From Lactarius indigo (Eukaryota; Basidiomycota; Agaricomycetes; Russulales; Russulaceae): 64,000 bases of DNA. The position numbers and the translations under genes are program-made. This document shows positions 29,036-64,000 of this stretch, piece after piece (positions within the stretch are counted from its first letter, which is position 1; each line of letters opens with the position of its first letter). The stretch spans positions 930,001 to 994,000 of the forward strand of contig JAFKAC010000011.1 of NCBI GenBank assembly GCA_025766275.1, in the 5' to 3' direction. A model generated the notes under the pieces. The model made no database searches and was not told the DNA's origin. It saw only the letters and a program-made list of their open reading frames with translations.

Positions 29036-29092
29036 AACCAGTTATTCATGGCATACAGTACCTGCTAAGTTTTCCTTTCTCCCGCTCCCCAT

Positions 29093-30665: not shown

Positions 30666-30717
30666 AGTGCATTGCGCTAGTTAGTGTAGTAGTTGCCGGT
30701 GCGGCGTGTGATGCAGG

Positions 30718-30815: not shown

Positions 30816-30964
30816 CGATGGAATCGCTACAATGCGCGCAAACCACCACCGGGCCAAATGCCCCCACAGACGCGTCACATGGAGCGGTAAGGCGAGCCCA
30901 GGCCGGTAAGGTAGTGCGCCTACATTCGGGCCTTGATTCGGGCTATGCAGTCACCGGCACGGCA

Positions 30965-32012: not shown

Positions 32013-32099
32013 CCGACCAGCTAGGAATCAATGACGCGCGCAAGCAAGCCTCGGCACCCCCCAAAATTAGGAATGATGACGCTGCAGTGATTACCTCGT

Positions 32100-40876: not shown

Positions 40877-41004
40877 TGTTACGCTACGTCTCGCACCTTA
40901 CCTTTCTCGTTCCTTCTCGACCATTCTCCATGCCCAGGCTGTTTCCTAACGTCCTTCCAACTTGTTGACTCACACTTTCTGTATGATTCAAAGGACGTTC
41001 TCGT
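40877..41004 (+). repeat. element 2 5' LTR, first piece (U3)
   Basis: Begins TGTTACGCTACGTCTCGCACC, resembling the LTR start of element 1 (TGTTACGTTTCGACTCGGACC). It is interrupted at 41004 by the hAT element and resumes at 57908. The 8 bp at 40997-41004 (GTTCTCGT) are the hAT target copy. The joined LTR (40877-41004 plus 57916-58180) would be 393 bp. Confidence 0.65.
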
Positions 41005-41026
41005 TAGTGGTGTCAAAGTTCGGTTC
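41005..41026 (+). repeat. hAT left terminal inverted repeat
   Basis: 22 bp identical to the reverse complement of 57886-57907. Confidence 0.92.
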
Positions 41027-41429
41027 AGTCCGGTTCTTTGCCCCTTGTGGCTAAACTCTGGACCGGACCGAGGGTCCGGTTTAGGATTTGGCCGAACCCC
41101 GAACCGGACCCCGGTCCAGGGTTCACAATGGTCCAGTGCCGGTTCGGGGAGGCTGTGAACCCCGAACCGGACCTGAAGGGGAATTTTCGGTCCGGTTCTG
41201 GTTCAGGAGGCCGAACCAAACGCTAAATCGAGGTGTATAAATCATAGAAACAGTTATCGTGTATTCTACTACAGCACATGGTAAAGTCACTCAAAGCTGA
41301 AGCTCGAAGCCTCGAAATCCCATTTGTTGCATGCTCATACACGCGTGCCAACTCTTCTTGTACTCCAGTAGACCCCACTGGCCCTTGGCAACATGTGTTC
41401 GCACCTGAGCTAGGATATAAGTGTAAAGT

Positions 41430-41690
41430 TGAGCACCAATGAAGGGGTCGGAAAGGGGGGATCAATGTGATGGGGAGGTGGAAGAAGACGGCAGGGACAG
41501 GGCATTGGGCGGTGAGGAAAAGAAGTAGAGAGGTGTTGGGGGTAGAGAAAAGTCGCTGGAATGCCTGTGTGATACGCATTAGAAGGAAATCGCGAAAGAT
41601 ACGAGACATACCTTATTGCAGTCGGAAAGTGTGAGGGTGAGCGCCGATTAACAAGCAGGTGTGGAGTCACTGGAATGCCACAAGTTCATA
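41430..41690. repeat. direct repeat inside hAT, left copy (right copy about 57430-57640)
   Basis: Similar in the same orientation to 57430-57640; the best block is CGGAAAGTGTGAG(G/C)GTGAGCG at 41623 and 57580, preceded in both by ACATACCTT. Other parts are only loosely similar. Its role is unknown. Confidence 0.5.
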
Positions 41691-41859
41691 TCGTGAACAA
41701 GGCCCTCAAGTTTCAGCGACGAGGCTGCAAGCGTGCTGAATTAAGCACGTACCTGGAACCCCTGGGGGCTGCGCCAGCAGGGTGAGCGGGGATGAGGAAG
41801 GAGGGGAGATATATATCCCAAGAAAGCCAGAGAGCGCTAGCAAGTAGATACCATAACGA

Positions 41860-42120
41860 GCAGGGTCGGTGACGAGTTGTTGGCATTGACGTAGCACGCT
41901 GGTTGAAGCCGGAGTAAGACAGGGAGAGAGAAACTGAGAAGAACGCGGCGCACCTTCTGACAAGCAGGCCGGTCATCAGCTGCCGAAGGTACATGCAATG
42001 ACCAGGCCCCGCAGCACGGAGAATGGAGAGGAGTGTTCTGAGGCAGGACCCTTGACGACGGCCGAATGAGAGTGAGCGAGACGAGAAAAAAAGGGAGACG
42101 AGAAAAAAAGATGACAAGAG
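41860..42120 (-). repeat. inverted duplicate inside hAT, left copy (right copy about 54050-54260)
   Basis: The reverse complement matches 54050-54260: GGCCGTCGTCAAGGGTCCTGCCTCAGAACA-type sequence occurs in both, followed by similar T/C-rich stretches and CTCCG(G/A)CTTCAAC. This gives the element a large internal inverted repeat. Confidence 0.6.
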
Positions 42121-42299
42121 ATGACGGCTAGTTGCGGGGCTTCAATCGGGCCGAAAAGAGAAATGAGACAAGTTGGCGACTTGGCGCTGATATCATGATA
42201 TTTTCAGAGAAAACGAGCGGTGGAACATGAAATGGACTGTATGGACGAGTATGCTACAGACTAAATATCATATTTCTTCTATAGCTTTATTTTCTAATC

Positions 42300-42842
42300 T
42301 CACTGTAATGACTCCAAGATCGAGTCAATGTCAATTGGGTCGATCTCCGTGTCCCCAGCATAGTCAACGTCCAATGATTGTACAAGGGCGTCGAAGTGTT
42401 CTGCTGCCTGTGTGACGGCAGAGATATGCCCGTTCCTGTAAGCGCTCTTGAGTATTTGAAGCCCCTCAAATATTTCCGGGGTCAGCGAGTTTCTTCGTGA
42501 GCAGCCGGTTATCCCCCCACTGCTAAATGCGCGTTCCGATGGTGTGGCGGATCCCTGGATTGGGAGGTAATCCCGGGCAATCCTCTTCAGTGTGGGGTAT
42601 TTTACATCGCTCTGGGTCTTTGTTTATATCCATTCGTTAAAAGTACGCTGGACAGAAATAAAAGAACTCACCCCCCACCATGAAATGACGTCGTCCACAC
42701 TCTCAACCCCAGATTGTAGGTATTGCTTGAGTTCGTCTTGAGGATTGCCATCTGCCTTCTCTTTTTGTTGGAACAACTTGACGGCCTCCAGAAGGTACGA
42801 ACCGCCGTAATGGGCCAATGGCTTAGGCGTGGGTGGCACGAT
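42300..42842 (-). pseudogene. hAT transposase, C-terminal part (cut off by Ty3 insertion)
   Basis: Last part of the transposase gene: exon 13 (second piece, 42842-42672) and exon 14 (42617-42300). It carries the hAT dimerisation domain, with KRIARDYLPIQGSATPSERAFSS and a C-terminal acidic tail ending LESLQ-stop. It directly continues the codon left open at 50672, with ACGAT at 42838-42842 being the Ty3 target duplication. Separated from the rest by 7.8 kb, it cannot be expressed as part of the transposase unless the intervening DNA were removed. Confidence 0.88.
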
Positions 42843-43357
42843 TGTTACGTTTCGACTCGGACCCTTACTGTACTGGTTGTCACTACAGCGGTAAGGTATA
42901 TTAGTGACGGACTTACCTACGATAGCGCGGCGATACGAGTACGATAGGAGATTGTACGATGATTGCTGACTGAGGACTGCGCCACTAATACTAGTAGTAG
43001 TAGTATTAGGGTTCGAGCTATTTACGCGACACGTTGGACGCTACTATACTGTGACTCATAGCAGCGCTTCTAAGCCTGCTAGTTTGTGTATTTAAACTGT
43101 CTTGTGAAGACCAAGATACGCCATCTTGGTCTTCTTGAATCGCCACTTGTTTCTTCTTCTATCTCTTCCTCGCGTCTTCATTCGAAGAGTAGACTGTCTC
43201 GCCCGTGACTATCGTGTTTGACTTGCCAGTGTACCTTCGAGTATTCACTAAGGCAGGAACTTGGACCTTCGCGTCTTCAAGTAGGCAAAGTCGTGATACC
43301 GCTAAGTTGTTACCGCTACACGCGCTCAAGTCGAGCTAACGTCGTGGCGACGTTACA
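42843..43357 (+). repeat. element 1 5' LTR
   Basis: 515 bp, starts TGTTACG and ends GTTACA. Compared with 50157-50671, only one difference is seen (G at 43273, A at 50587, a CG-to-CA change). Flanked by the 5-bp target duplication ACGAT (42838-42842; 50672-50676). It contains a TATA-like TATTTAAA at 43089-43096 and a hairpin with 12-bp arms (GAAGACCAAGAT / ATCTTGGTCTTC) at about 43106-43134. Confidence 0.93.
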
Positions 43358-43360
43358 TTA

Positions 43361-43371
43361 AGACCAAGATC
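43361..43371 (+). promoter_or_regulatory. element 1 primer-binding site, self-priming type
   Basis: AAGACCAAGAT begins 4 bp after the LTR end at 43357. It is the exact complement of ATCTTGGTCTT at 43123-43133 inside the LTR, which lies 34 bp after the start of the TATA-like box, where the transcript should begin. In the Tf1/sushi group the mRNA 5' end folds back onto such a site and primes reverse transcription. Confidence 0.6.
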
Positions 43372-43376
43372 TCACC

Positions 43377-45416
43377 GTGGCCGTAACAACCAGAGACCAG
43401 TGGACGAGCTTCCGTCCCTATTCAATCCCAAGAAGGGGAGAACGTAACGTCCCCACGCGCTTTCTACAAGCTGCTAGTTGGAGGGAAAGAGAAGAAGAAA
43501 CCGGATATTTTGTGGAATTTAACGGACCTACCAGGTTCCGCCCAGTTGAGTTCAACTTCGATTACCTGTGTTGGACGGAAGTTACGTGGAACCCCATAGA
43601 CTCTCAGTGGGACGTCATACGACCAGCAGGACCCAGATACCACTGTGACATCGACGCGCGAGAACTCAATAGCAGAGCAGATTGGGGCCCCATCGACGGG
43701 CAAATACGAGAACACTCCACTGGAGAGGTAGTAGTGTCAGAAGAAGAACAAAGCCAAGAAGAAAGTGAAGGACGAGAACCGAATCAAACGGAGACTAGTG
43801 GAGGAGCAATACAGGATCTCCTCATCGAACGAGCTGAGTCCGCACACATTACGGAACCAGAACCCATTCACATTCGATCACCAGCCATCATGGCAACAAT
43901 AACGCGAGCAATGGAGGAAGTCGCGATTGAAGAAGCGCGCGCCATACGAGAGGAGGCCAGAGAAATCCTTATGCCCATCAACCCTGAGACCGGCGTACGA
44001 ATGACCGCAGACGACGCCGCAATCTTTCGAGCCATAGGGTCTGATCAAGGAGACCCTCTGACAGGGCGACGACCTGCGCTGGAACTCCCCCCAGGTGACA
44101 ACCCGCCACCGCCACCAGGTGGAGGTATCCCATTCGACTTACGAAGGACCGAACCACCAAGAGGACCTCCCGCCGGACCACCCGGGGGAGGAGGCGGTGG
44201 AGGGGGAGGAGGTGATGGAGGCGCCGGGGGAGGACACCACAACGAAAAACTAACCGGCGAGCCACCTTCCATTTTCGATGGGGACAGACTCAAAGTAGAC
44301 CAATTCCTGACGCAGTGGCACGTTTACTGGGGCATGAACCTCGACGCCCCCATTATGCGCAACGACTACAGAAGATGCCTTCTGTTTCTTTCATACATCA
44401 AGGGCGGAGCAGTCAGTGAATGGGTCCTATCCTTCCTGAACTGGCTCAATAGGCAAATACAACGAGGGATTAATCCCTACACTCGAGACCTATGGGACGC
44501 CGTAGCCGACGGCTTCAGCCAACGATTCGAAAACACGCTGGAACGAGAACAGGCGCAGGCCATACTACGAAAAGGGTTCAGAATGACGGGGGAGGACATT
44601 GACAAGTACGTCAACGACTTCGAACAACTTGCACGGAAAGCTCATTACCGCCTCAACGAACCCCAAACGATCGATCTTTTCACCTCGGGTCTGCCGAAGG
44701 AGCTGTTTAAAAACGCGTTCCAATTTGACGACCCGATCACGTTCGATGACTGGAAGAGGGCTGTACTCAAGCGGCAGAAGAATTATATCCACCTTAAAGC
44801 AAGACTCAACGAGTACAAAAACACGACGACGCAGCCGAAGAAGCAAAGCGGCAATGCAGGATGGACGCTGCCGCAAAATTTACCGCAAAACAACCCATGG
44901 GCGATGGATACTTCAGCCGACCGCGCCAAGGTGAGGCTTGCAGGATCGGAAGAAATCGACTTCAACAAACTACCCCATCGCGACTGGCCAATGACGCCAT
45001 TCCCGCCGAGAGGAGGGCCGGGAGTTAGGGGACGTGGAAGAGGGGGATCCCGATGGGATTTAAGGAACGTTCTCTGTTACAACTGTCACGCTCCAGGACA
45101 TCTCTCACGAAACTGTCCACATCCCCACGTTCAGAGACAATGGCAAACAACCCCGTCAAGCAGTCGAATGACCGAGACATGGCCACCTCAATGGCCCGCT
45201 CAGCAAGGGCCGATATCACAGTACGAACCCTCATTGCCAGGGTACGCGACGCCGGCACCCAGCGCCACACCAATGCCGCAGATAAACGCGGCCACGACGA
45301 AGACGCCTGGGGAACAGGCGAAGGAGTGGCTCACACAAGTGGCCAACAGTACGGACGAGGTAAAAGACCTCATACTTCAAGATTTGTGGGGGAAAGAGGG
45401 TTTTCGGGACGCCTGA
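43377..45416 (+). CDS. element 1 Gag
   Basis: Structural polyprotein of 679 codons that would form the virus-like particle. Contents: an N-terminal part with FVEFNGPTRFRPVEFNFDY, an acidic S/E region, a Pro/Gly-rich linker near 44090-44240, a capsid-like part from about 44270 (LTQWHVYWGMN through ARKAHYRLNEPQ), and a CCHC knuckle (CYNCHAPGHLSRNC) at about 45076-45117. The frame begins with GTG at 43377 in a perfect Kozak-like context (ACCGTGG). The first in-frame ATG is only at 43890, after the conserved-looking N-terminus, so either the start codon has mutated or initiation is non-AUG. It overlaps pol, which lies in the minus-one frame. Confidence 0.85.
   Translation: MAVTTRDQWTSFRPYSIPRRGERNVPTRFLQAASWREREEETGYFVEFNGPTRFRPVEFNFDYLCWTEVTWNPIDSQWDVIRPAGPRYHCDIDARELNSRADWGPIDGQIREHSTGEVVVSEEEQSQEESEGREPNQTETSGGAIQDLLIERAESAHITEPEPIHIRSPAIMATITRAMEEVAIEEARAIREEAREILMPINPETGVRMTADDAAIFRAIGSDQGDPLTGRRPALELPPGDNPPPPPGGGIPFDLRRTEPPRGPPAGPPGGGGGGGGGGDGGAGGGHHNEKLTGEPPSIFDGDRLKVDQFLTQWHVYWGMNLDAPIMRNDYRRCLLFLSYIKGGAVSEWVLSFLNWLNRQIQRGINPYTRDLWDAVADGFSQRFENTLEREQAQAILRKGFRMTGEDIDKYVNDFEQLARKAHYRLNEPQTIDLFTSGLPKELFKNAFQFDDPITFDDWKRAVLKRQKNYIHLKARLNEYKNTTTQPKKQSGNAGWTLPQNLPQNNPWAMDTSADRAKVRLAGSEEIDFNKLPHRDWPMTPFPPRGGPGVRGRGRGGSRWDLRNVLCYNCHAPGHLSRNCPHPHVQRQWQTTPSSSRMTETWPPQWPAQQGPISQYEPSLPGYATPAPSATPMPQINAATTKTPGEQAKEWLTQVANSTDEVKDLILQDLWGKEGFRDA
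45398..45404 (+). promoter_or_regulatory. candidate minus-one frameshift site of element 1
   Basis: GGGTTTT read as G GGT TTT in the gag frame, 9 nt before the gag TGA at 45414. It fits the X XXY YYZ slippery rule. Slipping back one base leads directly into the pol frame (SGRLNPSVWV), whose protease follows. Confidence 0.55.
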
Positions 45417-48400
45417 ACCCGTCAGTCTGGGTGAGGGCCCTTCAATGTAATTCTGTAATTGTGACAACGCGCTATCGATCTATGCGAATTCCAGTAACTG
45501 TCCGCACAAATTACCAAACGACTGAAACAAACGCGCTAGTCGACTCCGGCGCTACCGACAACTTCATCCGACCCAGCCTGGCAAAACGGGCTGGTATCCA
45601 GACTCAGCCACTAAACACGCCCCGCAAGATATGGAATATAGATAATACGGAAAACAAAGCTGGGTTAATCACTCATTATGTTAACCTAGAAGTAAAAACA
45701 CGGGGGCAGATAAAGCAAATGACCTTCCTAGTCACCGACCTGGGAAGCGAAGACATGGTACTGGGTTACCCATGGCTCAGCGCATTCGAACCAACTATTA
45801 GTTGGGCCACCGCCACCATGCACCCCGACATGCAGCCGGTAGTACTGGCGACTACCGAGGCGTTACTATCAGCAACGACCGTTCGGGCCCTCATCGTGGC
45901 CGAAAAGGAACACATCGTACGAGAGCTTGAAGAAGAAACGTTCGCTAGGGCCACCACCTCGACGGAACTGGCCGTACAAGCGAAACAACATCAAACGGCA
46001 GCGACGCTCCCTCAAGAATACGCCATGTTCAACAAACTCTTTAACGAGCAAGCCTCGCAACGCTTTCCTCCGGCAAGACCGTGGGATCACGCAATAGACT
46101 TCAAGCCATCTGCGCCGGCCGCCATCGACTGCAAAATCTACCCCATGACCCAAAAAGAAGAGGGCGAGCTCAAGGAATTCCTAGAGGAAAAACTAAAGCA
46201 AGGATATTTACGACCTTCTATTTCCCCGTACGCATCCTCCTTCTTCTTTATTAAAAAGAAGGACGGAAAACTACGCCCGGTACAGGACTACTGAGTCATC
46301 AACTCTCACACCATTCGCAACCAGTATCCGCTACCGCTCATCCAAGACCTCATCCTAGACCTCAGCAACGCCCATATCTACACGAAACTCGACATCCGGT
46401 GGGGTTACAACAACATACGCATTCGCGATGGCGACCAGGAAAAGGCAGCGTTCAAAACCAAATTCGGCCTCTTCGAACCTACAGTCATGTTCTTCGGTCT
46501 CACTAACTCCCCCGCCACCTTCCAGGCCATGATGAATCACATCTATCGCGACACGATAGCGAAGCACGAACGTCTGGGCACCACCATACGTATCTACATG
46601 GACGATATTGGCATCGCCACTCACTTCGATCATAATTTAGGAGCCCACGTCGACGCCGTCCATGACGTGTTACGCGTTGCGGAGGAGCACGACCTCTACT
46701 TCAAGCTCGAGAAGTGCCTGTTCCACCAACCACGGATGGATTACCTGGGGGTAATCCTTGAAAGGGGGGTGACCCGAATGGACCCCGTGAAAATCCAAGG
46801 CATCAAGGACTGGCCGACACCAACGAAAGTCAAAGACGTCCGCTCCTTCCTTGGCTTTTGTAACTTTTACCGACTTTTTATCCGCAGTTTCGCAACTCAC
46901 GCCAAACCCCTCACTAAACTAACACGAAAGGACGAAGAATGGCGGTGGACCGAAGAAGAGGACAAGGCGTTCAATACCCTAAAACGACTCGTGACGGAGG
47001 AACCGGTGCTAGCGCACCCCGTCCTCCAGGATCCGTTCGAATTGGAAGTTGACGCTTCGGGCTACGCGGTGGGAGCCGTCCTACTACAAAAGAAATCTGA
47101 CGGCAAGCGACACCCCATAGGCTACTACTCGGCGACACTCTCTGAAGCCGAAAGAAACTACGATATCTACGACCTAGAGCTGCTCGCGATAGTCAAAGCC
47201 CTGCGAAACTGGCGACCACTCCTCGCAGGTGCCCCCCACAAGATCAAAATCTACTCGGACCACCTAAACCTACAATACTGGAAGTCACCACAAAAGATCA
47301 GCAGACGGGTCGCCAGGGAAGTACTCGAACTTTCTGAATACGACTTCGAGATTCATCACATTAAGGGAAAGAACAATGGAAGGGCAGACGCCCTGTCAAG
47401 ACGACCGGACTACGACCAAGGAATCGAAGACAACAGCGAAGTAGTGGTCCTACCTCCCGAAGTCTTTGTACGAACCCTTAACACCGCGCGTACCTTCATC
47501 GCGAACCCAAACCTACTGCAACCGCGTCACCAGCAAGACGAAGAAGTGATCAAGATGTGGGTCGACCCTCATCACCTCAAGAAAATACAAGGAGAATGGT
47601 ACAAGGACGGCAGGTTCGTAATCACAGGACCTGCATCAACCCAAAGAGTGCTGATACACGACCATCACGACTTGCCGGTACATGGTCACCCGGGAATTGC
47701 GAAAACTCAACGCATCCTGGAGAGACATTACTGGTGGCCGCGACTTCGGAGGGACGTATACGAATACGTACAAGGCTGCGCAGAATGCCAGAGAAACAAA
47801 GTCAACACGAGGCCCATACGGGCCGCGCTGCATCCCATCACGCCAATACTGGAAGCCATGCCATTCCACACAGTGGTGATAGACTTCATCACCAAACTCC
47901 CTACTTCCAAGGGGTATGACAGCATACTAACTGTCACGGATCACGACTGCAGCAAGGCCTCCGTCTTTATCCCATGTCGAGAAGAGATTACCGCAGAAGA
48001 AATGGCGACTTTGTATGTCGCCCAAGTGTTCAAACGCTTCGGGTTGCCACGCAAAATAATAAGCGACCGCGACCCCCGTTTCACGTCCAAGTTCACCAGA
48101 GAGGTATGCCGCATTCTGGGAATTCAACAGAACATATCGACCGCATATCATCCGCGTACCGACGGACAATCCGAACGAACTAACCAGTGGCTGGAACAAT
48201 ACCTACGCTTCTGGGTAAATGAGCGGCAAGATAACTGGGCAGCTTATCTACCAATCGCCGAATTCGCGCACAACAATTGGCCACATGAACACACCAAGGA
48301 GTCGCCGTTCCAACTTCTGATGGGATACAACCCGCAAGCGGACTGGACGGATAAGCCATCCCCCATTCCCCTCGCAACTGCGCGGCTAACACAGCTGAAG

Positions 48401-50125
48401 GAAGCTAGAGACAACGCCCAACGCCTCATAAGGAAGGCACAAGAGTCATGGGTGCGCAACAGAGATACGCCCAAGTTCAGTATCAACGACCTTGTGTGGC
48501 TTGAGGGCAAGCATCTTCGGACCAATCAGCCCACGGCAAAATTAGCGGCGCGACGCCACGGACCCTTCCGGGTGATACAGGTGATGTCCCCCTACAACTA
48601 TAGATTGGAACTTCCCACGCAGTGGAGCATCCACCCAGTGTTCCACATCGATCTTCTCACCCCGTACAAGCAAACTCCCTTACACGGGGAAAGCTTCACA
48701 CGACCACCGCCAGAACTGATAGATGGGGAAGAAGAATACGAAGTGGAGGCCATTCTGGACTCTCGGCATTTCGGCAGAGGAAGACGCCTCCAATATCTCA
48801 TCAAATGGAAGGGGTACCCGGATTCGGAGAATCAGTGGGTCAACAAGGACGACGTCTTTGCGCCGGAAGCACTTCGTCTGTATCAGGAAACGCAGACTCA
48901 CGGTAAAAGGGATAAAGTGGGACGCGTTCGAACAGAGGACAGTCATCCCCTCTTCCTTCGCTCCACCACTACTCTCATGCCCACTTCCCCACTGCGACAT
49001 GTCACGCAAGCACAGCTCCTCGACTCCCTCGCAGAGGACGCCCGCGCCCTCTTGGCCGACGACGACGCCACCGAAATTCCCAACACTCAGCTCACACCAT
49101 GGACGCCTCTTACACCAGCAGAGGGGCCCATCACCGCGCAAGAATGGGCCAACGTGGTCACCAGATTCCCAGACCCAACAACTACCCCCGACGACGACCG
49201 AGCCGTCGTCCACGTCTTCCGAAGCGATAACGGTGAGCGCGAACCCTTCGCCGCTATCCCCCCAAGCGACGACCTCATCGGCGTTCGCGGAGTTTTCCCG
49301 AGCAACAACCAGCATTCAAGCGCTGATGGAGTACGAGTTGGAGGGGTGGAAGAGAGTAGCAGCAGCATGGCAGAAGGAGCAGTTGGACTCGGCAGCGGCC
49401 CGACTGAAGGAGATGCGCGAGCGACGGCAGCGATGGCGGCAGCTGAGGCTGGCCATGACGACGAAGATTATTACCCGGCGAGACACACCTTCCTTCGAAC
49501 GAAACGCGACCCTGATAATCCCCTCGTCACGCCCTGGCTCGTCTACTCCAACGGGTCCCCCATGTATCGAGGACGTGTGCGCGTGCCTGGTGCCGCCGAT
49601 CACCGTCCATTCACCGCCGCCGAGGACCCCGCGCATGTCATTGCGCCTGAAGGGTTCCGGTCGAACCGATGACCCCATCACATTCGATACCCCATCACCG
49701 GGCCAGACGGAGTAGAGAGGGACGCGTCGCATGTCCAAATCATCGGAGGGGCGGACCCACTCATATTAGGGGTCATACCAGGCTCACCACACGTCTATGG
49801 TAAGCCCTTCTACGCCGAACCCCACGTATCCGCCGCGCTCCGCCCCACGTACCCGCACGAGGACCTTGTCGTCTTCGAAGCGGACAAGATCACCGACCGC
49901 GCGCTCAATCGTATCAACGATGAGTCGCTCACCGCAGAAGTCACGCGCTTCCGCGCGGCCAGCTATGAGCTGGACCGACTTCGGGCGCGGGTGAGTCAGC
50001 TCCGCGCAATGATCGAATGTGCGCAAGATGACCGCTGCGACGCCATCTACCGGCTGGAGCGCGCCACCGCGTTGGAGCGTATCACTGACGAGCAACTCAC
50101 CTGGCCGCCGCGCGACTTTCGGTGA
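45405..50125 (+). CDS. element 1 Pol (protease-RT-RNase H-integrase-chromodomain), two TGA interruptions
   Basis: Polyprotein in the minus-one frame to gag. Order: aspartic protease (ALVDSGATDNF, about 45535), reverse transcriptase with YMDD at about 46596, RNase H (EVDASGYAVGAVLL, about 47046), integrase zinc region (about 47656-47805) and catalytic core (VVIDFITKLP, then SDRDPRFTS and TDGQSER), chromodomain at about 48730-48890 (YEVEAILDSRH through LIKWKGYP), then a C-terminal extension of roughly 400 codons ending in a coiled-coil-like stretch. TGA codons interrupt at 46292-46294 (after RPVQDY) and 49670-49672 (after SNR). In elements 2 and 3 the same places hold arginine codons. The chromodomain places it among the chromoviruses, which tend to insert in heterochromatin. 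Confidence 0.9.
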
Positions 50126-50142
50126 GCCTGGGGTCTCACGCT

Positions 50143-50156
50143 AAAAGAGGAGGTGA
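50143..50156 (+). other. element 1 polypurine tract
   Basis: AAAAGAGGAGGTGA directly before the 3' LTR, priming plus-strand DNA synthesis. The same kind of tract precedes the 3' LTR of element 3. Confidence 0.7.
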
Positions 50157-50671
50157 TGTTACGTTTCGACTCGGACCCTTACTGTACTGGTTGTCACTAC
50201 AGCGGTAAGGTATATTAGTGACGGACTTACCTACGATAGCGCGGCGATACGAGTACGATAGGAGATTGTACGATGATTGCTGACTGAGGACTGCGCCACT
50301 AATACTAGTAGTAGTAGTATTAGGGTTCGAGCTATTTACGCGACACGTTGGACGCTACTATACTGTGACTCATAGCAGCGCTTCTAAGCCTGCTAGTTTG
50401 TGTATTTAAACTGTCTTGTGAAGACCAAGATACGCCATCTTGGTCTTCTTGAATCGCCACTTGTTTCTTCTTCTATCTCTTCCTCGCGTCTTCATTCGAA
50501 GAGTAGACTGTCTCGCCCGTGACTATCGTGTTTGACTTGCCAGTGTACCTTCGAGTATTCACTAAGGCAGGAACTTGGACCTTCGCATCTTCAAGTAGGC
50601 AAAGTCGTGATACCGCTAAGTTGTTACCGCTACACGCGCTCAAGTCGAGCTAACGTCGTGGCGACGTTACA
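50157..50671 (+). repeat. element 1 3' LTR
   Basis: 515 bp, copy of 42843-43357 with one difference seen. Followed by the ACGAT target copy. Confidence 0.93.
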
Positions 50672-53609: not shown

Positions 53610-54049
53610 GGTCTGAAAGGTGAGTTGGTCGTCGTAGGGACATACCTGGTTTTTATCCTTTTTGCCCCCTCATATCTGTACGTTAATGTTGCAGAGGTGA
53701 AGACATGAAGAGCCCTAGTGGTGAGGTGGTGAGAGGACAGCGCGTAATGGATCCAAAAAAAAGACAGAGGACAACCCGTCGGCCTGACACGTGACTGGGC
53801 TTCCCAGATCTGCATTGAGTCATGTTTCATCTATTTTTCCCATCACTCGCTTCGATTTTCAACAAGCTTTCTTTCCTTCCCCCACCATTGTCTCGCCTCT
53901 GGTTGCTCCTTCTCTCCTCGTCAGATGCCCAACCGCTCCGACGTTATTGGCTGTTCTCGACCACCTACACCATAGCCGACAATACCTTGGTTGAAACATC
54001 GTCAAGGGTCCCGCATCAAAACATTCCCCTCCATTCTGTCTTGCGGGCT

Positions 54050-54260
54050 GTCGTCAAGGGTCTCGCCTTTGGGCCGTCGTCAAGGGTCCTGCCTCAGAAC
54101 ATTCTCCTCCATCCTCTGTCCTGCAGGCCTTGTTATTGCATACACCTTTGTCGGCCGATGACCGCCTGTTTGTCTGGAAAAAGGTGCACCATGATCTTCT
54201 CATTTTCTCTCTTCCTCTCTCACTCCGACTTCAACTAGTGTCATGTCAACACTGTTTCAT
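54050..54260 (+). repeat. inverted duplicate inside hAT, right copy
   Basis: Partner of 41860-42120 in opposite orientation. Within it a GTCGTCAAGGGTC word is repeated three times (about 53998, 54049 and 54075). Confidence 0.55.
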
Positions 54261-54362
54261 GGAACACACTGTAGTCGGCAAAAGGTTTGAATTCGCCTGT
54301 CGTACTATCTATGCACAGGGTTGGCCATTACTCTCTCCAGCCGCTCCTGTCGTTCTGTTCCT

Positions 54363-55035
54363 TTACGTGCGTGAGCGCTTCCAGTCCCCCTCCGGCAGCG
54401 GGGCGTTACTCATCATGGCGGCGACCCTCTTTCTAGGTTTGGTATGTTTTTGGGCTTCGTCGCTGTCAGGCTTGTCTTTATGGACATCCCCTAAGACAAA
54501 ACCGGTGTTGGTGCTGTCACCGGTGTTAGCCTGGCCTGAAGCCTGTATATCCGCTCTCCAGTTGGCCCGGGTGTTGGGCCCCTCCGGTACTAGTAGGGTG
54601 GTATTGCACCGCTTGAGGCCTTTAGTGCTGGATACAGCAGCAAGGGTGAAGTCCGAGTATTCAGTCTCATCATCCGAGCATTCAGTCTCGTCGTCCGAGT
54701 CTTCGGCCTCATCGTCACTGCTCTGAGACTCGCCTGGACAGCTCGTGACACTGCCGTCCCCGAGGTCGCCCATCATGCCTGTGGTAGGTCTAGCTTCATA
54801 AGTCATTTTACGCTAGTAGGCCGATTACTCGCACTTACTCTGTGTCAGGTTCGGTTTCGCCAGTATCCAAGACCCTGAAAGATTTCATGTACATTGAAAC
54901 GCTGCTCAGGCTGGGAAGTTGAATCCCCACCGCTGATCTTGTTGCTGACTTAGGACCTCCCTCAGTTGTTGCAATCTGCACAATGGCCACCTGACGCTTT
55001 GCGTCGGCATCTGATAGATGTTTCCCAACAGGCAT
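54363..55035 (-). CDS. second hAT-borne gene, acidic protein of unknown function
   Basis: Two minus-strand exons, 55035-54839 and 54789-54363, joined by an intron with GTAAGTGC donor and CTAG acceptor, give 207 residues. The N-terminal part (MPVGKHLSDADAKRQVAIVQ) is mixed. The middle is highly acidic with repeated SDDE-type units (EDSDDETECSDDETEYSD). The C-terminus is basic (KHTKPRKRVAAMM, ending KRSRT). It has the same orientation as the transposase and lies upstream of it, inside the element. Some hAT-like elements carry accessory genes, but I do not recognise this one, and the start codon could be further upstream. No known domain or signal peptide is seen. Confidence 0.45.
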
Positions 55036-57770
55036 GCCGGAGGAGACTCGGGGAGGTTGAAAGATGCGTGGCGTAGGGAAAAGAAAAAAAAAACAAAGGT
55101 ACATCTGTTTCCACCGTCGATAATTCGATTTTCTTATGATACCGCTCGCAATCCCGTGTGTCGCACAATTGAGTCGGAAGCACCATGACTTCCAGTGTTT
55201 CGATTCTTTATGCAACCATCGAAGACACCGGACAGATGTTTGCCTCGGCAGCCTCACACCCCCTTTACGTCCTTACAGACGCTCTTCGTGTATCGTGTAT
55301 TCGTGTTTCTCTGCTTATTTGACCACTACACACAATCCTGTCGTCGTCCCTCCCTGCTGGCTCATGTATGTATTGATCACTACAAGACCTCCGACACACT
55401 TGATTCCGACATTTGAGCTTGGCGGAGTAGGCTCAACATCACATTCAGAGTTCAGACATCTTCCGTCAAGGGTTCTGTCCAAAGTGGGACTCTATTCCGA
55501 TGGATCCTTGGACATGTTAGTTTATGGCATCCGGAGACAAGGACCAGTTACCGGAAGTACGTCCATCTACAAGAACAGCAAATTTAGAAGTCTGCATGAG
55601 ATCGTATTCGCTCGAACTCACATTTGCACGATTGTCAAGCCAAAGAGGCTACCGGTTTAATAAGTAGCTGCATGGAAGCACCCAAGCAGGACTCACGTAG
55701 TACTGATGAGTAGCCCGGTGGCCCCGACAAAAGCCACTCCGAAGGAAATGTCAACGACAGACAGGCCAAGCATGGTGTGAAGCTGTACTTTCAAGGGATA
55801 TGGAATACCTCACCAAGAAAAGTTTGACTTACAATGAACATAAACTGGTGGCATGGTGCTAATGGCCGAGAAAGGCGGACGTTGGACAGGCGACTCTGAA
55901 CGGCTGAAACTGAGTGGTTTCAAGCCTACTACAGTACATAAGGGCTGCGGTGCCCAACGTAAAGTTGATGTTCGATGTTCAGCTGCCACCAGGAGACGCG
56001 GCAGCGGTGGCACTTCCGAGTCTGATGTACGTCACGCGGACAGTGCGACACTCGGACAGGGTTGTGAGTTGTGACAAAACGAGCCGAATACTTAGTGTAG
56101 TAATGGACCGAGTGTATGGCGTCGTAACTACTGTGTATCCCTGGGGTCCAACAATCAATCAGCTAAAAGCTGCAATCGTCGACGGGTAGAGACACAGACC
56201 CCCCACACTACACCTCTTCCGCGCTCTGAGAGTCACCTCCAACATGCCTGTTGATGTGTCCATCAATGGCCGATGCGCACCCCTGCCGAATACACCACAC
56301 TACAGTCAGTCACAGGGTCAACCTCGTCTAGGAGATGAACCGGATATGCACCCATGTCCCTGCATCATGGTGATCACCAGGGTGATCTGGGTGCCCGTGA
56401 CTGGTAATGTCGTGACCCACCATACGCAAGTGTAAATACACGCATGGTGACGCCACCTCTGGGTGGAGTACACCATGTATGGTGTGCGGACATCAGCCCT
56501 TGGTCCAAAATCAGTCTCACTGTACCCACAAAACCCGTCAATAGACTTGAAAGTGTAAAAACATCCAATACGATACCATTAACCATCCTTGATCATCAGA
56601 GAACACGTCTAAGATGTTGCAAGTGCCCAGGCGTGATGCGGCGCAAGTGGGCGCGCAGGCTTCCGCGGGGCAAGAGATGTCGTATGTAGTTCCGTGGCAG
56701 TTGTGGCCGCGCCCGTGTTGAATAGCTAAGCCCGCACACGAGTGCTGCAGGGTCGGTAAAGGGAATGGTGAGCGACATGGAGCCCCGCTGGATTGGGTGG
56801 TTGCAGGTGATCGGAAACAATCGTGCATGCTTCCGCACAATGCAAGACTTCACAGACGTGGGTGCCTTGGTCGTAGACGCGTCATGCGCAATTTCCTAAG
56901 GCCGCGCGCAAGTGTGGCGAGATCGGGAATATGAACAGTGGGCTATGGTCAATAGTGATCGGAAATGGTCATGCACGCTTCCGCAGGACGCGAAACTTCG
57001 CGGAGATAGCCTCCTCGGTCTTTGATGGGTCGCGCTAGAGTCGGTAAGGCCGCGCGTGGGTGCGGCACGCTGGGGAAACCGGGGAACGCGAGGGGAAACG
57101 CTAAAAAGTCGAAATGTGCAAAGAGCCCTGGGGGCGCTAAGGACAGTCAGGACGAAAATGGAAAACGTTCGAAATGTCCTAAGGACGCTAAGTGCTAAGC
57201 ATGCTATCGTAAGCAAAGGCCTGGGTGCACGTATCTTAGGGGTCTCGTGGTGGGGCCTGTGGTGGCCGTTGTGGCGAGTTGCCAGGTATCTGTGCGAGTG
57301 CGCTGTTAAAAGGTAAGCCATTACCAGTACTTATGCGAGGGGTGACTTATGTGAATTAAATTGAAGTGTCACCGAAGGCACGAAGGGCTGCGGCGCCCTT
57401 GCACTGTATGGGCCACTGACATCTGTGGGTACTGGGTGACGGGAGAGCAGGGCGATGGGGGAGGAAAGACATTTGAACGTGGTGTCGGAGGTGGGGAAAG
57501 AGTAACCAGAAGGGCCGATGCGATATGTGTCAACCAAGGAAGAGGGAATTGAAAAGTACAATACATACCTTTTTGCGGTCGGAAAGTGTGAGCGTGAGCG
57601 TTGACTGACTAGCAGGCGTGGAACATCACGAGTCAGTCTCATGAAACGACCTTATTTGGTCACCCAAACTTGCTGCCTAGACGAAGTTGCTGCATGTACA
57701 CCTCAGCGAGATGAGAGTTAAGGATAAGAGTCCGAACGTGTTTGGACGCGTTCACGTGTGGTTCAGCAGA
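55036..57770. other. hAT internal region without recognised gene
   Basis: Several open frames below 180 codons on both strands, for example 55136-55660 plus and 56896-57321 minus, with no known domain. Two imperfect units containing GATCGGAAA and a CATGC(T/A)TTCCGCA-type block occur near 56808-56840 and 56959-56990. The direct repeat partner of 41430-41690 lies at about 57430-57640. Confidence 0.4.
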
Positions 57771-57885
57771 ATCTGAGTTTCGCTGAACCCCGAACGGAAC
57801 CGTCGGTCCGGTTCAGGACAGACGGCCGAACCCGAACCTGAAATTGGGTCTGGTTCAGTTAGGTTCGGGTCCAAACCAAAGTTCA

Positions 57886-57907
57886 GAACCGAACTTTGAC
57901 ACCACTA
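57886..57907 (-). repeat. hAT right terminal inverted repeat
   Basis: 22 bp, the reverse complement of 41005-41026. It is followed by the GTTCTCGT target copy at 57908-57915. Confidence 0.92.
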
Positions 57908-58180
57908 GTTCTCGTAGCTTCCATATGACTCCTAGCAATAGTACTTAAGGATGAGTTTCCATGTACTCAGAGCGTTAAGCTCGACTTACTGTATTCAACT
58001 GCAGTAACCTCTCGTATAAACATCTTTTGGCTTCACGAACTCGAACGATCGCTTGTTGTTGACTTGCGATTCCCCTCTCGTCTTGTGCATCATCGCTCCG
58101 CCGTCTGATTGTCGGCATTATCCAAACTCCGATTCGATCTCCGACTCGAATCCAAACGATATGCCTTACTGCGCGTAACA
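57908..58180 (+). repeat. element 2 5' LTR, second piece (U3-R-U5)
   Basis: Continues the LTR broken at 41004. A TACTTAAG box (57942-57949) precedes the presumed transcript start at about 57977. The end GCGTAACA at 58180 followed by TTAAG parallels the element 1 LTR end and PBS (GTTACA, TTAAG). The 3' LTR of this element is not in the window. Confidence 0.6.
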
Positions 58181-58181
58181 T

Positions 58182-58193
58182 TAAGTCGAGCTT
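58182..58193 (+). promoter_or_regulatory. element 2 primer-binding site, self-priming type
   Basis: TAAGTCGAGCTT, one base after the LTR end, is the exact complement of AAGCTCGACTTA at 57977-57988 in the LTR, 35 bp after the start of the TATA-like box. Same logic as in element 1, with a completely different sequence. Confidence 0.6.
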
Positions 58194-58234
58194 TCCCCAA
58201 ACTCGATTCCTCAAACGAATACAACCGTTTTGAT

Positions 58235-59956
58235 ATGTCTAGATCCACCTTTGCGGACGGCGACGGAGGAGGGGTAATCTCCCTTCCTTTCCAACTCAAA
58301 CCTTGAACAACCGACAACGTTGCCCTACCAGACGACCCCTTGCGAACTAATGTCGAATTCCTACAGAAAGGAGACAGCCAGGCCCCTTGGGCGGGCTACT
58401 ATACACTGTTCTGCGGTGTCAAAAAGGCCGTTGAAAATTACTGCGGTGTCTGGTTCGAACTGCAGTACAACCCGAACTTGAAGCGACACTATGCTGCCTG
58501 AGTAGCAGCAGCAAACCTAGGACTAGTACACGCTCCTTGGGCTAATATGAATATCGATGAACTCAAAGCCCAGATGGTCCTCCAAACTGCCACCGAATCA
58601 ACTATTGTCTCTCCAGTCCCGACTCAATTCACTCAGCACGCCGCGTCATCTCAAGAAGCAGCGCATGCATCTCGACCCCTGAGCACCCACTCAGAAATCA
58701 TCACCGGTACCGGTCTCAACTTCGACCGTAGCGACAAAACGACCGACAAAGGTAAACAGAAGGACGACAACAAAACGCTGCCGTCCCGCCACACCACTAT
58801 TACGCCAGGAGATACCGCTGGAAAAGCTCCAGACGATGGAGACAGCAATGACAGCAACGACAGGGGACTCACTGCTGACGAACGTAACTTCGAAAAGATC
58901 CTCAGATCAATCCGAGGAGAACACCTCGAAGGCACTGCTCCCTGGGCCTTCTCAGGCAAGCGATCAGATACACGCCATTTCTTGGGCGCGTTTCAATGGT
59001 ACTGTTTCATGAACAAAGACGCATTGATCATCAAGGACCCCTACAAACGTGCAACGCTTTTCCTCAATCTGTGCGAAGGAGGAGCTGAGAAGTGGGTCAC
59101 ACGCGCTACGGACTGGCTCACCCAGGTCGACGCCAGCATGAAGACGGTCCCGTTCGGTCACGATGTCTGGCAGCTCATCTTACGCGAGTTTAAAGATGCC
59201 TTTACCGACGTATCTGACGCTGAAAGAGCCCAGCAAGCTCTTCTTAAATTGCGCATGAAGGAAAGTAACCTCGACGACTATGTCTCGGAATTCCAAGATC
59301 TTGCCGATCGTGCCAGAATGGACGCCGACGAACCCAACGTTCTCCAAATGTTCACGCAAGGCTTACCTCTGAAACTCGCAGGATCTTGCATTGATCACGA
59401 TAGTCCAGACAACTTCGCGCAGTGGATTCAAAGCGCACAGAAACGTCACCGTAACTGGCTCAAGAAGCAAGCCATCAAGGAGTTCAACCTGTTCCCGCAA
59501 AACACCAGACACTGCCCTGGTCAAAACGTTTTCTCACAGAAATGGACCACGAATGGCAACCGTGGCAGGCAACAGCAGCAGTATCGCATGCCACGCAACG
59601 ATCCCGACGCTATGGACGTCGACGCACTTTGCAAAGCAACTACTGAAGACGAAAAACAGAAGTACCGCACCGAAGGCCGCTGTTATGCCTGCGGCAAGCA
59701 AGGACACCTCAGCCGCAACTGTCCTGACCGCAAACCGCGCATCGCAGCTGCCTCTTCAACACCGATCACGACGGCCACCCCAGCCACTCAATCAATTCCC
59801 GCTGTCGCCGTCAACACCCCATTACCCGTCAATAAAGACACAGTCGTCACGCACGAAGTCCTAGAACAACTCGCCGAATTTTCACTGAAACTTATGACCG
59901 AACAACAGGATGACCTAGCTCAGATGCTTGCAGCTCGTGGCGCGGATTTTCTCTAA
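58235..59956 (+). pseudogene. element 2 Gag with two TGA stops
   Basis: Frame from ATG 58235 (MSRSTFADGDGGG) to TAA 59954-59956, 574 codons including two TGA codons at 58304-58306 and 58499-58501. The long open part from 58547 contains the capsid-like region (WAFSGKRSDTRHFLGAFQWY, then DVSDAERAQQALLKLRM) and a CCHC knuckle (CYACGKQGHLSRNC) at about 59686-59727. Removing the two stops would give an uninterrupted protein, so the upstream 100 codons belong to gag. An ATG at 58547 could only give a shortened form. Confidence 0.82.
59944..59950 (+). promoter_or_regulatory. candidate minus-one frameshift site of element 2
   Basis: GGATTTT read as G GAT TTT in the gag frame, 3 nt before the gag TAA. 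It resembles the known retroviral G GAU UUA slip site. A minus-one slip enters the pol frame, which is open from here through the protease. Confidence 0.45.
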
Positions 59957-62790
59957 GCTCTGGTCCTGCGGCCTGGATCCGAGCTCTTCTCCCCAGTAGT
60001 ATCTTTGTACCTAAAGTAAACGCTTTGAAAATGAAGATCAAATTCCCTTATGAACGAAGATACGAAACGGCCGAAGCTTTAGTTGATACTGGAGCAACTC
60101 ATAATTTCATAACTCAGGAACTAGTCAACAAATTGTCCCTGACATCACACACTCTTCAGTGACCACGAGTCATTAGAAACGTCGATGGAACTGTAAATAA
60201 AAGCGGAAGTGTAACCCGCTATGTAGACCTGGATCTATGGATAGACCATGATATCAGCAGAATCACGCTTGGACGATTACATTGATTCTACATTGCCGAC
60301 CTAGGAACGGACCAAATGATCTTAGGATATCCATGGATGGCCTCAAACCTGGTGAAACTAAACTGGGAGGAACCGGAAAATAATCCTGCAATCTTTGCGC
60401 ACCCCCAGCGATGGTTCCTAAAAGCCCTACACTTGGACGATGATGATGAAATCATCATGAGGATCTGTAAAACGACTCATTCCCAAAAACTTGCCGAAGC
60501 CGCCCACGACAAAACTGAGAGACCCTGGAAAGACTTAGTCCCAGAGGAACTTCACGACTTCAAGAAAGTATTTAGCGAGCAAGAAGCTCAGCGATTTCCA
60601 GAACCAAAACGTTGGGATCATGCCATTGACCTCTTAGACGATGCCCTGGCAACCCTGGACTGTAAGGTCTATCCACTGACTCAAGACGAACAAGTGGCGT
60701 TAGACAAGTTCTTGAAGGAACATATAGAAAAACAGTATATCCGTCCCTCTAATTCGCCGTACACCGCCCCCTTTTTCTTCGTCAAGAAGAAAGACGGGAA
60801 GCTCCGCCCTGTCCAAGACTACCGACGGCTTAACACCTGGACCCGAAAGAATCGTTATCCCCTTCCCCTCATCGCCGATCTTGTGACTCACGCACCTGGA
60901 AATGACTGGTATACGACAATGGACATCCGATGGGGTTACAATAATATCCGCATCAAAGATGGCGACCAATGGAAAGCAGCTTTTAAAACAAACTGAGGAC
61001 TGTTCGAGCCAATGGTCATGTTCTTTGGCTTAACAAACAGCCCTGCCACTTTCCAGACGATGATGGACGATCTATTTCGGAACAAAGTGGCACAAGGATG
61101 GCTGAAGGTTTATATGGACGACATCTTAATCACAACAAAAGGAACAAGGGAAGAGCACCTCGAGCGAATTAAACAGGTGCTTCGAATACTTCAAGAAAAC
61201 AACCTATTCCTCAAGCCAGAAAAATGCAAATTCCTCCGTTCTTCAGTTGAGTATTTGGGCGTTATCATTGGACGAGAAGGCATCGAAATGGACACAGTCA
61301 AACTCACTGGATTACTTGAGTGGCCGGTACCACGCTCCGTCACGGAAGTGCGATCCTTCCTGGGATTCGGCAATTTCTACAAACCTTTTATTGCCGACTA
61401 CGCCCGCATTGCACGTCCCCTTCACGATTTGACGAAGAAAGGTGCTCCCTTCGTCTGGGGTGATGCTCAACAAACTGCTTTTCTCTCACTGAAAGAACGT
61501 TTCGCATCGTGACCTGTCTTGGCCACCATTGATTATAACAAACCATTCACGGTCCAAACAGATGCGTCCAAGTTTGCCATTGGTGCCACACTCTCCCAAC
61601 CACAAGATGATGGACAACTGCATCCAGTCGCGTTCTTCTCTGCTTCTCTCCTCCCAGCGGAAGTGAATTATGACATTTATGATCGTGAACTGCTGGCGAT
61701 CATAAAGGCGCTCTGCCATTGGCGTCATCACCTCCTAGGAGCCAGACACCCCATTTCCGTTTTCACTGATCACAATAACCTGTCCTATTTCTGTGCACCC
61801 CATAAAATTTTGGGAAGACAGGCACGCTGGATGGAGACCCTGGCCGAATTCGACTTTACACTTCAACACATTCCCAGACACTCCAATACAGTCGCTGATT
61901 TACTCTCACGCCGTCCGGACCTTAATGAGGGGGTGGATTCCATCAATGACAACATAGCCATTCTTCCTGACCATCTTTTCACCCGACTCATTACACTGTC
62001 TACGGAGGACGAGCAACGGAAAGCCTTACAAGAGTGCCATGATACCCCAACAGCAGGACATCCAGGGATAGCAAATACATGGGCACTCATAAAGCGACGC
62101 TACACGGGACAAGGACTAAAAGAGTTTACAGAACAATATGTCAAAGGATGCCCAACGTGTCAAATGAACAAAAGCAGAACACAAGGGAGAGCACCCCTGC
62201 AACATGTGGACGTACCGGCAGAAGAAGGACCGTTCCAATATATCAGTCTAGACCTGATAACGGACCTACCATCAATGGGGAAATACAACGCTATCCTTAC
62301 CATCGTAGACCAGGGTTGTAGCAAGGCAACAAAGTTCATCCCATGTACGAAACAAGTCATGGGAGAAGGAGTAGCGACCCTCTACCTCCGACACGTATTC
62401 CCATGGTTCGGAATCCCAAAACAAATCATCTCAGATCGGGACCCCAGATTCACCAGTGCCTTTGCTACGGCCATTTGTAAACAAACAGGAATCCAGCAAA
62501 ACCTAAGTACTGCCTTCCACCCACAAACAGACGGACAGACAGAGAGGATGAACACCTGGGTAGAACAATATTTATGACACTGGGTGAGGCAACAAGGCCA
62601 GGACGACTGGGATCAATACCTACCAGTCGCAGAATATGCGCACAACTCCTGGCTGCATGACATAACCAAACGAACGCCTCACGAACTGTTATTTGGCATG
62701 AACCCCACGGTAAATATTGAAGCAGATGAAGAAAACAAGTCTCCAACAGCAACGGATCAATTACTCAAGATTCAAGAAGCACAGCTGCAC
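59951..62790 (+). pseudogene. element 2 Pol with five TGA stops, truncated
   Basis: One continuous reading frame from just before the gag end. Order: protease (ALVDTGATHNF, about 60082), RT (KDGKLRPVQDYRRLN; YMDD at about 61114), RNase H (QTDASKFAIGATLS, about 61558), integrase zinc region (about 62035-62165), and core (LDLITDLPS; SDRDPRFTS; TDGQTERMN). TGA codons at 60160, 60283, 60994, 61510 and 62575 interrupt it without any frameshift. At 62575 element 1 has arginine (YLRFWV), and at 60994 related elements commonly have arginine (TNRGLFEP). The frame is cut at 62790 by the LTR of element 3, so any chromodomain lies beyond it. Confidence 0.88.
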
Positions 62791-63352
62791 TGTAACGCCG
62801 TCACGGCGTTAGCTCGACTTGAGCTCGAGAGAGGCGATAACAACTTAGCGCGAATGTATGCTTGACACGACGACACGAAGGTCCGTGTGCTTGCCTCAGT
62901 GAATACGCGAAGGTACACTGGCAAGGCCTTTGCCTATCTTGCTGGTCACGAACGAAGTCGGACGTTGATCGAAGATTCAAGAAGATGGAAAGAGAGAAAG
63001 AGGCAAGTTGTGATAGAAAGACAAACAAGTGACGATTCAAGAAGACCAAGATGGCGTATCTTGGTCTTCACAAGACAGGTTAAATACAGATTGAACGGGC
63101 TTAGAAGCGCCGTTATGAGTCACAGTAAGTAAGCGTCCAACGTATCGCAGAAACAACGCAGATCCTAATACTACTAGTACCAGTACTAGTGGCGTCGGTC
63201 ATCAGTCAGCTATCGTACCTTATCGCCTATCGCACTACCGTATCACCGTAAGTAAGTCCGCAACTAATCTACCTTACCGCCGTAGTTGCAACCGGTACAG
63301 TAAGGGTCCTACTTCATGTCATACCACAGCACAGAAAGTCCAAAACGTGACA
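62791..63352 (-). repeat. element 3 3' LTR
   Basis: 562-bp LTR in reverse orientation; on the minus strand it starts TGTCACG and ends GGCGTTACA. It is a diverged relative of the element 1 LTR, sharing the GAAGACCAAGAT hairpin (about 63040-63066), the TTTAAATAC-like promoter box region and the end. The last 5 bp of element 2 before it, TGCAC (62786-62790), should be the target duplication; the other copy is outside the window. Confidence 0.8.
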
Positions 63353-63365
63353 TCACCCCCTTTTC
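63353..63365 (-). other. element 3 polypurine tract
   Basis: On the minus strand GAAAAGGGGGTGA directly precedes the LTR start. Confidence 0.6.
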
Positions 63366-63381
63366 AGCGTGAGACCCCGAC

Positions 63382-64000
63382 TCACCGAAAGTCCCTCGCC
63401 GGCCAGTCACGTTGCTCGTCGGCGATGCGCTCGAGTGCCGTAGCGCGCTCCAGACGATAAATGGAGTCGCGGCGGTCGTCCTGCGCACATTCAATCATGG
63501 CGCGGAGCTGGGCCACCCGAGCGCGGAGTCGGTCCAGCTCGTAGCTAGCCGCGCGGAAGCGCGTAATCTCGGCTGTGAGCGACTCGTCGTTGATTCGGTT
63601 GAGGGCCCGGTCGGTGATGCGGTCCGCCTCGAAGACGACCAGGTCTTCGTGGGGGTACGTGGGACGAAGAGCGGCGGATACGTGCGGCTCGGCGTAGAAG
63701 GGCTTACCGTAAACGTGTGGCGACCCCGGTATGACTCCTAGTATGAGGGGGTCAGCCCCCCCAATGATCTGAACGTGGGACGCGTCCCGCTCTACTCCGT
63801 CGGGCCCGGTGATGGGGTATGGAATGTGATGGGGTCGTCGATTTGCCCGGAACCCTTCAGGCGCAATGACATGCGCGGGGTCGTCAGCGGCGGTGAACGT
63901 ACGATGATCGGCGGCGCCAGGCACGCGCACACGTCCTCGATACATGGGGGACCCGTCGGTGTAGACGAGCCAGGGTGTGATGAGGGGATTAGCAGGGTCG
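63382..64000 (-). CDS. element 3 Pol, C-terminal extension (partial)
   Basis: Open minus-strand frame entering from the right edge and ending at 63382. It aligns nearly residue for residue with the part of element 1 pol at 49505-50125 (PLITPWLVY, MYRGRVRVPGAADH, HVIAPEGF, YPITGPDGVERDASH, then an Arg/Glu-rich helix ending WPARDFR). It is uninterrupted where element 1 has its second TGA: element 3 reads NRRPHH with CGA CGA. It shows that the extension after the chromodomain is a real, conserved part of pol in this lineage. Its function is unknown; the helical end may mediate oligomerisation. Confidence 0.8.
   Translation of the reverse strand, partial: DPANPLITPWLVYTDGSPMYRGRVRVPGAADHRTFTAADDPAHVIAPEGFRANRRPHHIPYPITGPDGVERDASHVQIIGGADPLILGVIPGSPHVYGKPFYAEPHVSAALRPTYPHEDLVVFEADRITDRALNRINDESLTAEITRFRAASYELDRLRARVAQLRAMIECAQDDRRDSIYRLERATALERIADEQRDWPARDFR

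Follow-up and report, generated by a model that had tools for sequence, protein, structure and literature searches.

Four transposable elements nested three levels deep in Lactarius indigo, with a readable order of insertion

Results

Architecture of the locus

The window, by which we mean the whole 64,000-nucleotide stretch analysed (positions 930001-994000 of contig JAFKAC010000011.1 of Lactarius indigo, here C13), holds a nest of four transposable elements: three retroelements, E1, E2 and E3, and a hAT element. The genome searched was a single one, in a 90.3-Mb assembly. Since the nest runs past the window edge, C13:994001-1003900 (L009) was added and read. The nest does not end at position 64000 but at C13:1,002,787, 8.8 kb past the window, and spans 31,911 bp (31.9 kb) from E2 start to E2 end (Table 1).

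The nest has two branches, E2 > hAT > E1 and E2 > E3. A first-pass annotation had called it a four-level nest; the count of four elements stands, but the depth is three, because E3 sits in E2 as a separate branch on level 2. All four insertions are flanked by target duplications (ATAGG for E2, GTTCTCGT for hAT, ACGAT for E1 and TGCAC for E3), and each has an empty-site counterpart within the same assembly. Every inner element breaks a recognisable outer element for which an uninterrupted counterpart exists. All the junctions that the annotation had named can be read in the sequence, and its order of insertion agrees with both the duplications and the empty sites.

Table 1. Positions of the nested elements and their target duplications. 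Plain numbers are window positions; L009 is C13:994001-1003900.
Feature	Position	Strand	Remarks
E2 target duplication ATAGG, left	40872-40876		single copy at empty site C92:55666-55670
E2 5' LTR, piece 1	40877-41004	+	ends in target copy GTTCTCGT; 118/119 aligned bases identical to 3' LTR, plus a 9-bp gap
hAT target duplication GTTCTCGT, left	40997-41004		exact, 8 bp
hAT	41005-57907	-	strand of transposase gene; 9.07 kb without E1 and its duplication
E1 target duplication ACGAT, left	42838-42842		
E1, Ty3/gypsy chromovirus	42843-50671	+	flanked by ACGAT
E1 target duplication ACGAT, right	50672-50676		
Dispersed-repeat piece in hAT subfamily	56354-57253		900 bp; older than nest
hAT target duplication GTTCTCGT, right	57908-57915		exact, 8 bp
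E2 5' LTR, piece 2	57916-58180	+	253/265 identical to 3' LTR; all 12 differences CpG-type transitions
E2 internal region up to E3	58181-62790	+	gag, RT, RNase H, integrase; several in-frame stops
E3 target duplication TGCAC, left	62786-62790		
E3, Ty3/gypsy chromovirus	62791 to L009 6733 = C13:1000733	-	7,943 bp
E3 target duplication TGCAC, right	L009 6734-6738		
E2 3' LTR, uninterrupted	L009 8404-8787 = C13:1002404-1002787		followed by ATAGG
E2 target duplication ATAGG, right	L009 8788-8792 = C13:1002788-1002792		follows 3' LTR, outside window

Two candidates for a further layer were rejected. The 900-bp repeat piece inside the hAT is not a fifth nested element, as ten other hAT loci share it wholly or partly, from which it follows that it arrived with the hAT. 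E2 does not appear to lie inside another repeat, since its 5' flank has only a counterpart on contig C92 and weaker matches of 65-84%, and the 286-bp repeat in its 3' flank is also found in C92. This repeat (L009 ~9021-9306) has inverted ends of ~30 bp and at least 24 other genomic matches of 92% or more. Elsewhere in the window we observed four long same-orientation DUF6535 reading frames (15787-35801), a clustered gene family. DUF6535 is typical of Agaricomycetes, and its presence, like the short introns of the hAT gene, fits a host of that class. A search of the window for RNA families and tRNAs found none.

The outermost element and its empty site

E2 carries gag, RT, RNase H and integrase domains and, past E3, a chromodomain (E = 1.1e-13); no protease hit was obtained in the E2 pieces scanned, the stretch 59957-60285 lying outside the scan. 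Without its inserts E2 measures 7,052 bp by subtraction, which agrees with a distance of ~6.65 kb between the starts of the LTR matches in several members of the family. The annotation's proposal of an LTR split across 16.9 kb holds: both pieces align to the uninterrupted 3' LTR of E2, and they match genomic copies of the E2-family LTR as well. Piece 1 has at least 40 scored genomic places, itself included, and among the best 40 scored places for each piece the two are found joined with an 8-bp overlap, that is, with no insert (for example C1:1405498-1405620 with 1405613-1405885). Nine bases of the 5' LTR (~40931-40939) are without counterpart in the 3' LTR; apart from them the two LTRs differ by CpG transitions only. 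Near-identical separate insertions exist in the E2 family, on contigs C247, C10 and C281, with differing duplications.

The chromosomal site of E2 is found in an empty state on C92. C92 aligns at 97% with positions 1-216 and 283-1500 of the 1,500 bases that precede E2, up to C92:55670, and at 98%, from 55671 on, with the first 856 of the 1,108 bases that follow E2. Across the site C92 has one ATAGG (55666-55670), no LTR and no insert. LTR elements do not excise cleanly, and their loss by recombination leaves a solo LTR; for these reasons C92 shows the state before insertion. The resemblance of this 83-kb contig to C13 extends beyond the flanks, with window 20001-23000 matching at a rounded 100% and 34152-39592 at 96.3%. 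C92 is therefore probably the second haplotype of the same strain, in which case the whole nest is on one haplotype only. Between matched points upstream (window 23000-39660) C92 has ~10 kb more than C13, and beyond C13:1003648 C13 is perhaps ~6.5 kb longer than C92, if the next paralogue matches correspond.

The hAT element

The hAT interrupts the 5' LTR of E2, as first annotated: its 8-bp duplication stands on both sides and is present once at the equivalent place in E2's own 3' LTR. The inverted ends are 22 bp long and 100% identical (41005-41026 and 57886-57907). A Dimer_Tnp_hAT domain (PF05699) was recognised on the last-exon ORF (E=1.5e-8) and on a rough spliced model of the copy on contig C79 (E=5.9e-10). 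According to this model the transposase gene has short introns, with the caveat that it over-split the gene into 21 exons, some of 2-14 bases.

Ten other hAT loci were examined. The expectation that 8-bp duplications would adjoin the hAT ends in related copies was borne out, with exact duplications at 9/10 loci and 6/8 bases agreeing at the tenth (C278). Within each of the locus pairs C57/C289 and C239/C233 the duplication is shared and the left flanks are 99.9-100% identical; both are probably pairs of alleles, so that the 11 hAT loci represent about 9 separate insertions. The uninterrupted element spans 9,082-9,089 bp in five loci (C79, C57, C1, C289 and C237); ~9.1 kb is large for a hAT. 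Interruption of this hAT is common here, since the remaining five loci, the window aside, span 15.5 to 74.3 kb end to end.

Several other features of the element can be noted. C239:320712-323506 and C233:446966-449760 share a ~950-bp insert whose flanking hAT matches overlap by 8 bases, likely a non-autonomous hAT-like element within the hAT. The 900-bp repeat piece starts sharply with ATGTCCC and lacks the last ~75 bases of its repeat, which occurs as three tandem 795-bp units in C226 and for which no inverted ends were seen by eye. A 72-bp direct repeat, 82% alike, lies close to both hAT ends (41594-41665 and 57551-57622) and is perhaps a subterminal transposase-binding sequence. Two reading frames on the minus strand, 149 and 145 residues long (54366-55272), lie upstream of the transposase gene; neither matched a Pfam family at an E threshold of 0.1.

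E1 and E3

E1 has gag, protease, RT, RNase H, integrase and chromodomain (E 9.1e-13), and its LTRs (42843-43357 and 50157-50671) show 1 difference in 515. Its insertion into the hAT transposase gene, which the annotation had proposed, agrees with ACGAT on both sides and with the other hAT loci, 9/10 of which are continuous with one ACGAT at the site (two locus pairs among them being probable alleles; an exact-string search alone found the uninterrupted site in 5 hAT loci). C135, the tenth, gives no information because it breaks off ~80 bases short of the site. In the rough splice model of the C79 copy the E1 site, which the annotation had put in exon 13, is coding and falls in the penultimate coding exon. 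E1 also has an extra C-terminal reading frame (49673-50122) without Pfam match, and E3 includes a stretch similar to it (626 nt, 86%).

The same domains are found in E3 (chromodomain E 1.7e-13), and its two LTRs, 562 bp each, are identical. As annotated, it stands separately in the pol region of E2 at 62790, with TGCAC on both sides; the site is uninterrupted in 10/10 E2-family copies fetched, which come from at least 26 other matches of 77% or more.

Although the LTRs of E1 and of E3 are nearly identical within each pair, neither element has a close sibling among its best-ranked matches. Among the best 40 of 1634-2450 candidates, the closest other LTR is 84% identical for E1 and 90% for E3, and the closest E1 pol relative 91%. 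Such sibling-less young elements could be due to LTR conversion, to source copies in other strains or to incompleteness of the assembly. The youth of E1 and E3 is less certain than the order of insertion, because near-identical LTRs without siblings are odd for recent copies.

CpG decay as a second ordering

Decayed CpG dinucleotides are frequent in the E2 LTRs (13/66, 0.197) and the window hAT (99/619, 0.160) and rare or absent in the LTRs of E1 (1/80, 0.013) and E3 (0/82, 0). The hAT decay exceeds that of E1 (p=5.7e-5) and of E3 (p=2.3e-6). There is no clear difference between E2 and hAT (p=0.48) or between E1 and E3 (p=0.49); as the measure does not separate E2 from hAT, their order is taken from the topology only. 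Used as a clock, this comparison assumes like exposure of the four elements, and for E1, E2 and E3 it covers the LTRs only. It suggests that E1 and E3 both arrived after much of the decay of the hAT. That E3, the side branch, also appears to be late is a point which the CpG clock adds and which is beyond the reach of topology.

The decay is highly specific. Between the two E2 LTRs there are 13 substitutions, each a CpG-type transition, with 0 at 318 other sites and a single 9-bp gap besides; three dinucleotides read TG in one LTR and CA in the other, as if the CpG had been lost separately. Between the window hAT and the C79 copy, in which 9/619 CpG are decayed, 111/136 differences are at CpG sites. 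When eight hAT copies are compared over the left 1.83 kb, the window copy has 14 private CpG changes and 0 other private changes, six others have 0-4 private CpG changes and none else, and C278 has 39 and 5. In ten E2-family LTR pairs (that of the window and nine others with matching 5-bp duplications and both LTRs among 30 loci fetched), 39/40 differences are CpG transitions over the 273-bp piece compared, as are 2/2 differences in an eleventh pair, C220, paired by position only. Half of the differences between different E2-family elements are CpG-type (424 non-independent comparisons), and between C13 and C92, in the compared flanks and upstream DNA, 85/205 differences are at CpG sites. Decay after insertion thus differs in kind from ordinary divergence: 39/40 in LTR pairs, 85/205 in flanks.

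A preference for the 5' neighbour, such as TCG, is absent (ACG.088, CCG.097, GCG.078, TCG.074), and a TCG-type RIP signature was rejected on this ground. For the longer pieces of hAT and E2 the CpG observed/expected ratio lies at 0.85-1.00, as against 1.28 for the 128-bp LTR piece of E2, 1.07-1.30 for E1 and E3 and 0.92-1.00 for upstream DNA. CpG depletion is a weak sign of age here, as the ratio is low in upstream DNA too.

Insertion into other transposons

Chromodomains are found in all three retroelements, and E1 and E3 landed in transposons. The annotation had taken such landings to fit a targeting to heterochromatin, a suggestion that gains no support from the present data: of 28 other flanks, ten on the left side of other hAT loci and 18 beside nine further E2-family elements, 0 contain any of the four families within 1.3-1.5 kb, and the DNA into which E2 inserted occurs on C92 with no E2 in it. 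A general landing of the four families in each other is likewise not supported by these flanks. The test is a weak one, because the library consisted only of the four families and one small repeat, and with it the 28 flanks have neither proved nor excluded a bias of insertions to heterochromatin.

Discussion

We consider it very likely, at a probability of roughly 0.96, that the locus records four independent insertions in the order E2 > hAT > E1 and E2 > E3. E2, a chromovirus, came first, entering host DNA with a 5-bp duplication, and the hAT next entered the U3 of the 5' LTR of E2, with an 8-bp duplication; from what is known of these element families, E2 would have used its integrase and the hAT a cut-and-paste mechanism. 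E1 later integrated into a coding stretch of the hAT transposase gene; E3, probably also later and on the opposite strand, went into E2 between the integrase core and the chromodomain. After their insertion E2 and hAT decayed almost only by C-to-T changes at CpG, most likely through deamination of methylated CpG.

An assembly artefact, in which repeats from separate loci were chained into a false nest, has to be considered, since each of the four elements has ten or more relatives in its repeat family, and sequence of this type is what assemblers misjoin. Misjoining would not, however, produce four exact and distinct target duplications, each with an uninterrupted site elsewhere, and the outer flanks of the nest are contiguous in C92; we regard an artefact as extremely improbable. 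Slightly less remote is a composite transposition in which the hAT arrived already carrying E1, so that the insertion of E1 was not the latest on its branch. Topology alone permits E1 to have entered the hAT before the hAT entered E2, and other hAT copies do carry inserts, such as the one shared by C239 and C233, though these loci look allelic. Against this, 9/10 other hAT loci are without E1 at the site, the tenth being uninformative, and among the best 40 scored the E1 LTR is matched elsewhere at 84% at most. Moreover, the decay of the surrounding hAT is largely private to the window copy, with 14 private CpG changes in the left 1.83 kb, and E1 is younger than most of it, given 1/80 decayed CpG in its LTRs as against 99/619. 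Taken together, these points make such a joint arrival improbable, and the four separate insertions remain our preferred reading.

The origin of the CpG pattern is less settled than the order. It might reflect an active, RIP-like hypermutation rather than slow deamination, so that the fractions record episodes instead of time, and if this were true the insertion order would rest on topology only. The near-exclusive CpG transitions in the ten LTR pairs with target duplications (39/40), the absence of any non-CpG private change beside the 14 private CpG changes of the window hAT in 1.83 kb, and the contrast with the C13/C92 flanks (85/205) are all what such a process would leave. The lack of a TCG-type neighbour preference speaks against it, as it is unlike the TpCpG preference described for Microbotryum in passages of PMC4352252. 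We think hypermutation unlikely, though it deserves to be taken seriously. Its context-free form, a RIP-like process directed at CpG with no TCG preference, which hits new copies soon after insertion and by which E1 and E3 are still unaffected, seems to us a little less probable again; if it holds, LTR divergence counts rounds of the process and not time. Slow deamination is the explanation that we favour.

These observations have practical consequences. Plain LTR dating would mislead in the E2 family because 39/40 of the LTR-pair differences are CpG transitions. Converting LTR divergence to age would be badly wrong here, whereas the order of the layers by CpG decay agrees with that of the nesting. 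To an annotation tool the 5' LTR of E2 would appear as two fragments separated by 16.9 kb, and E2 might be truncated or missed. Owing to the natural empty counterpart in the same assembly, a control is available for each layer of the nest.

CpG-type C-to-T decay of transposons in basidiomycetes was reportedly described by Horns et al. in 2012. A CpG signature in basidiomycete transposons is likewise set out in parts of PMC4352252, where deamination of methylated CpG and a Masc2-like methyltransferase are proposed. Our data resemble that account in the CpG transition signature in transposon copies; they differ in that LTR pairs and polarised hAT copies were measured here and in that the TpCpG preference was not seen.

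The three retroelements resemble fungal Ty3/gypsy chromoviruses in their gag, RT, RNase H, integrase and chromodomain, with a protease in E1 and E3, in their 5-bp duplications and in their TG...CA LTRs. The domain order protease-RT-RNase H-integrase-chromodomain is seen in E1 and E3, and in E2 from RT onward. The extra C-terminal frame of E1 and the similar stretch of E3 set these two apart, which is not necessarily unusual. The hAT has the 8-bp duplications, short inverted ends and C-terminal dimerisation domain of its superfamily, and differs in its large size (~9.1 kb, judged against general knowledge) and in the 900-bp piece of another repeat that it contains. Duplications of 8 bp are described as usual for hAT in part of PMC12730594.

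Nested transposons with a resolvable order are textbook material, and the maize adh1 region is an example of a nested LTR-retrotransposon cluster whose order was inferred. In the sections of PMC2672092 (the tool REANNOTATE) and PMC6911290 (a plant survey) that concern such clusters, deriving the order from interruption and LTR divergence is standard, and the ages of non-LTR elements are bounded by the LTR elements around and within them. The present nest is like these in how its order can be derived, and differs from them in having a DNA transposon within an LTR and in that the same assembly contains the whole locus in an empty state. These two points do not amount to a new kind of nest. The locus is a clean but ordinary instance of a well-known pattern, and its value is that of a well-controlled example and of a warning on LTR dating in this genome.
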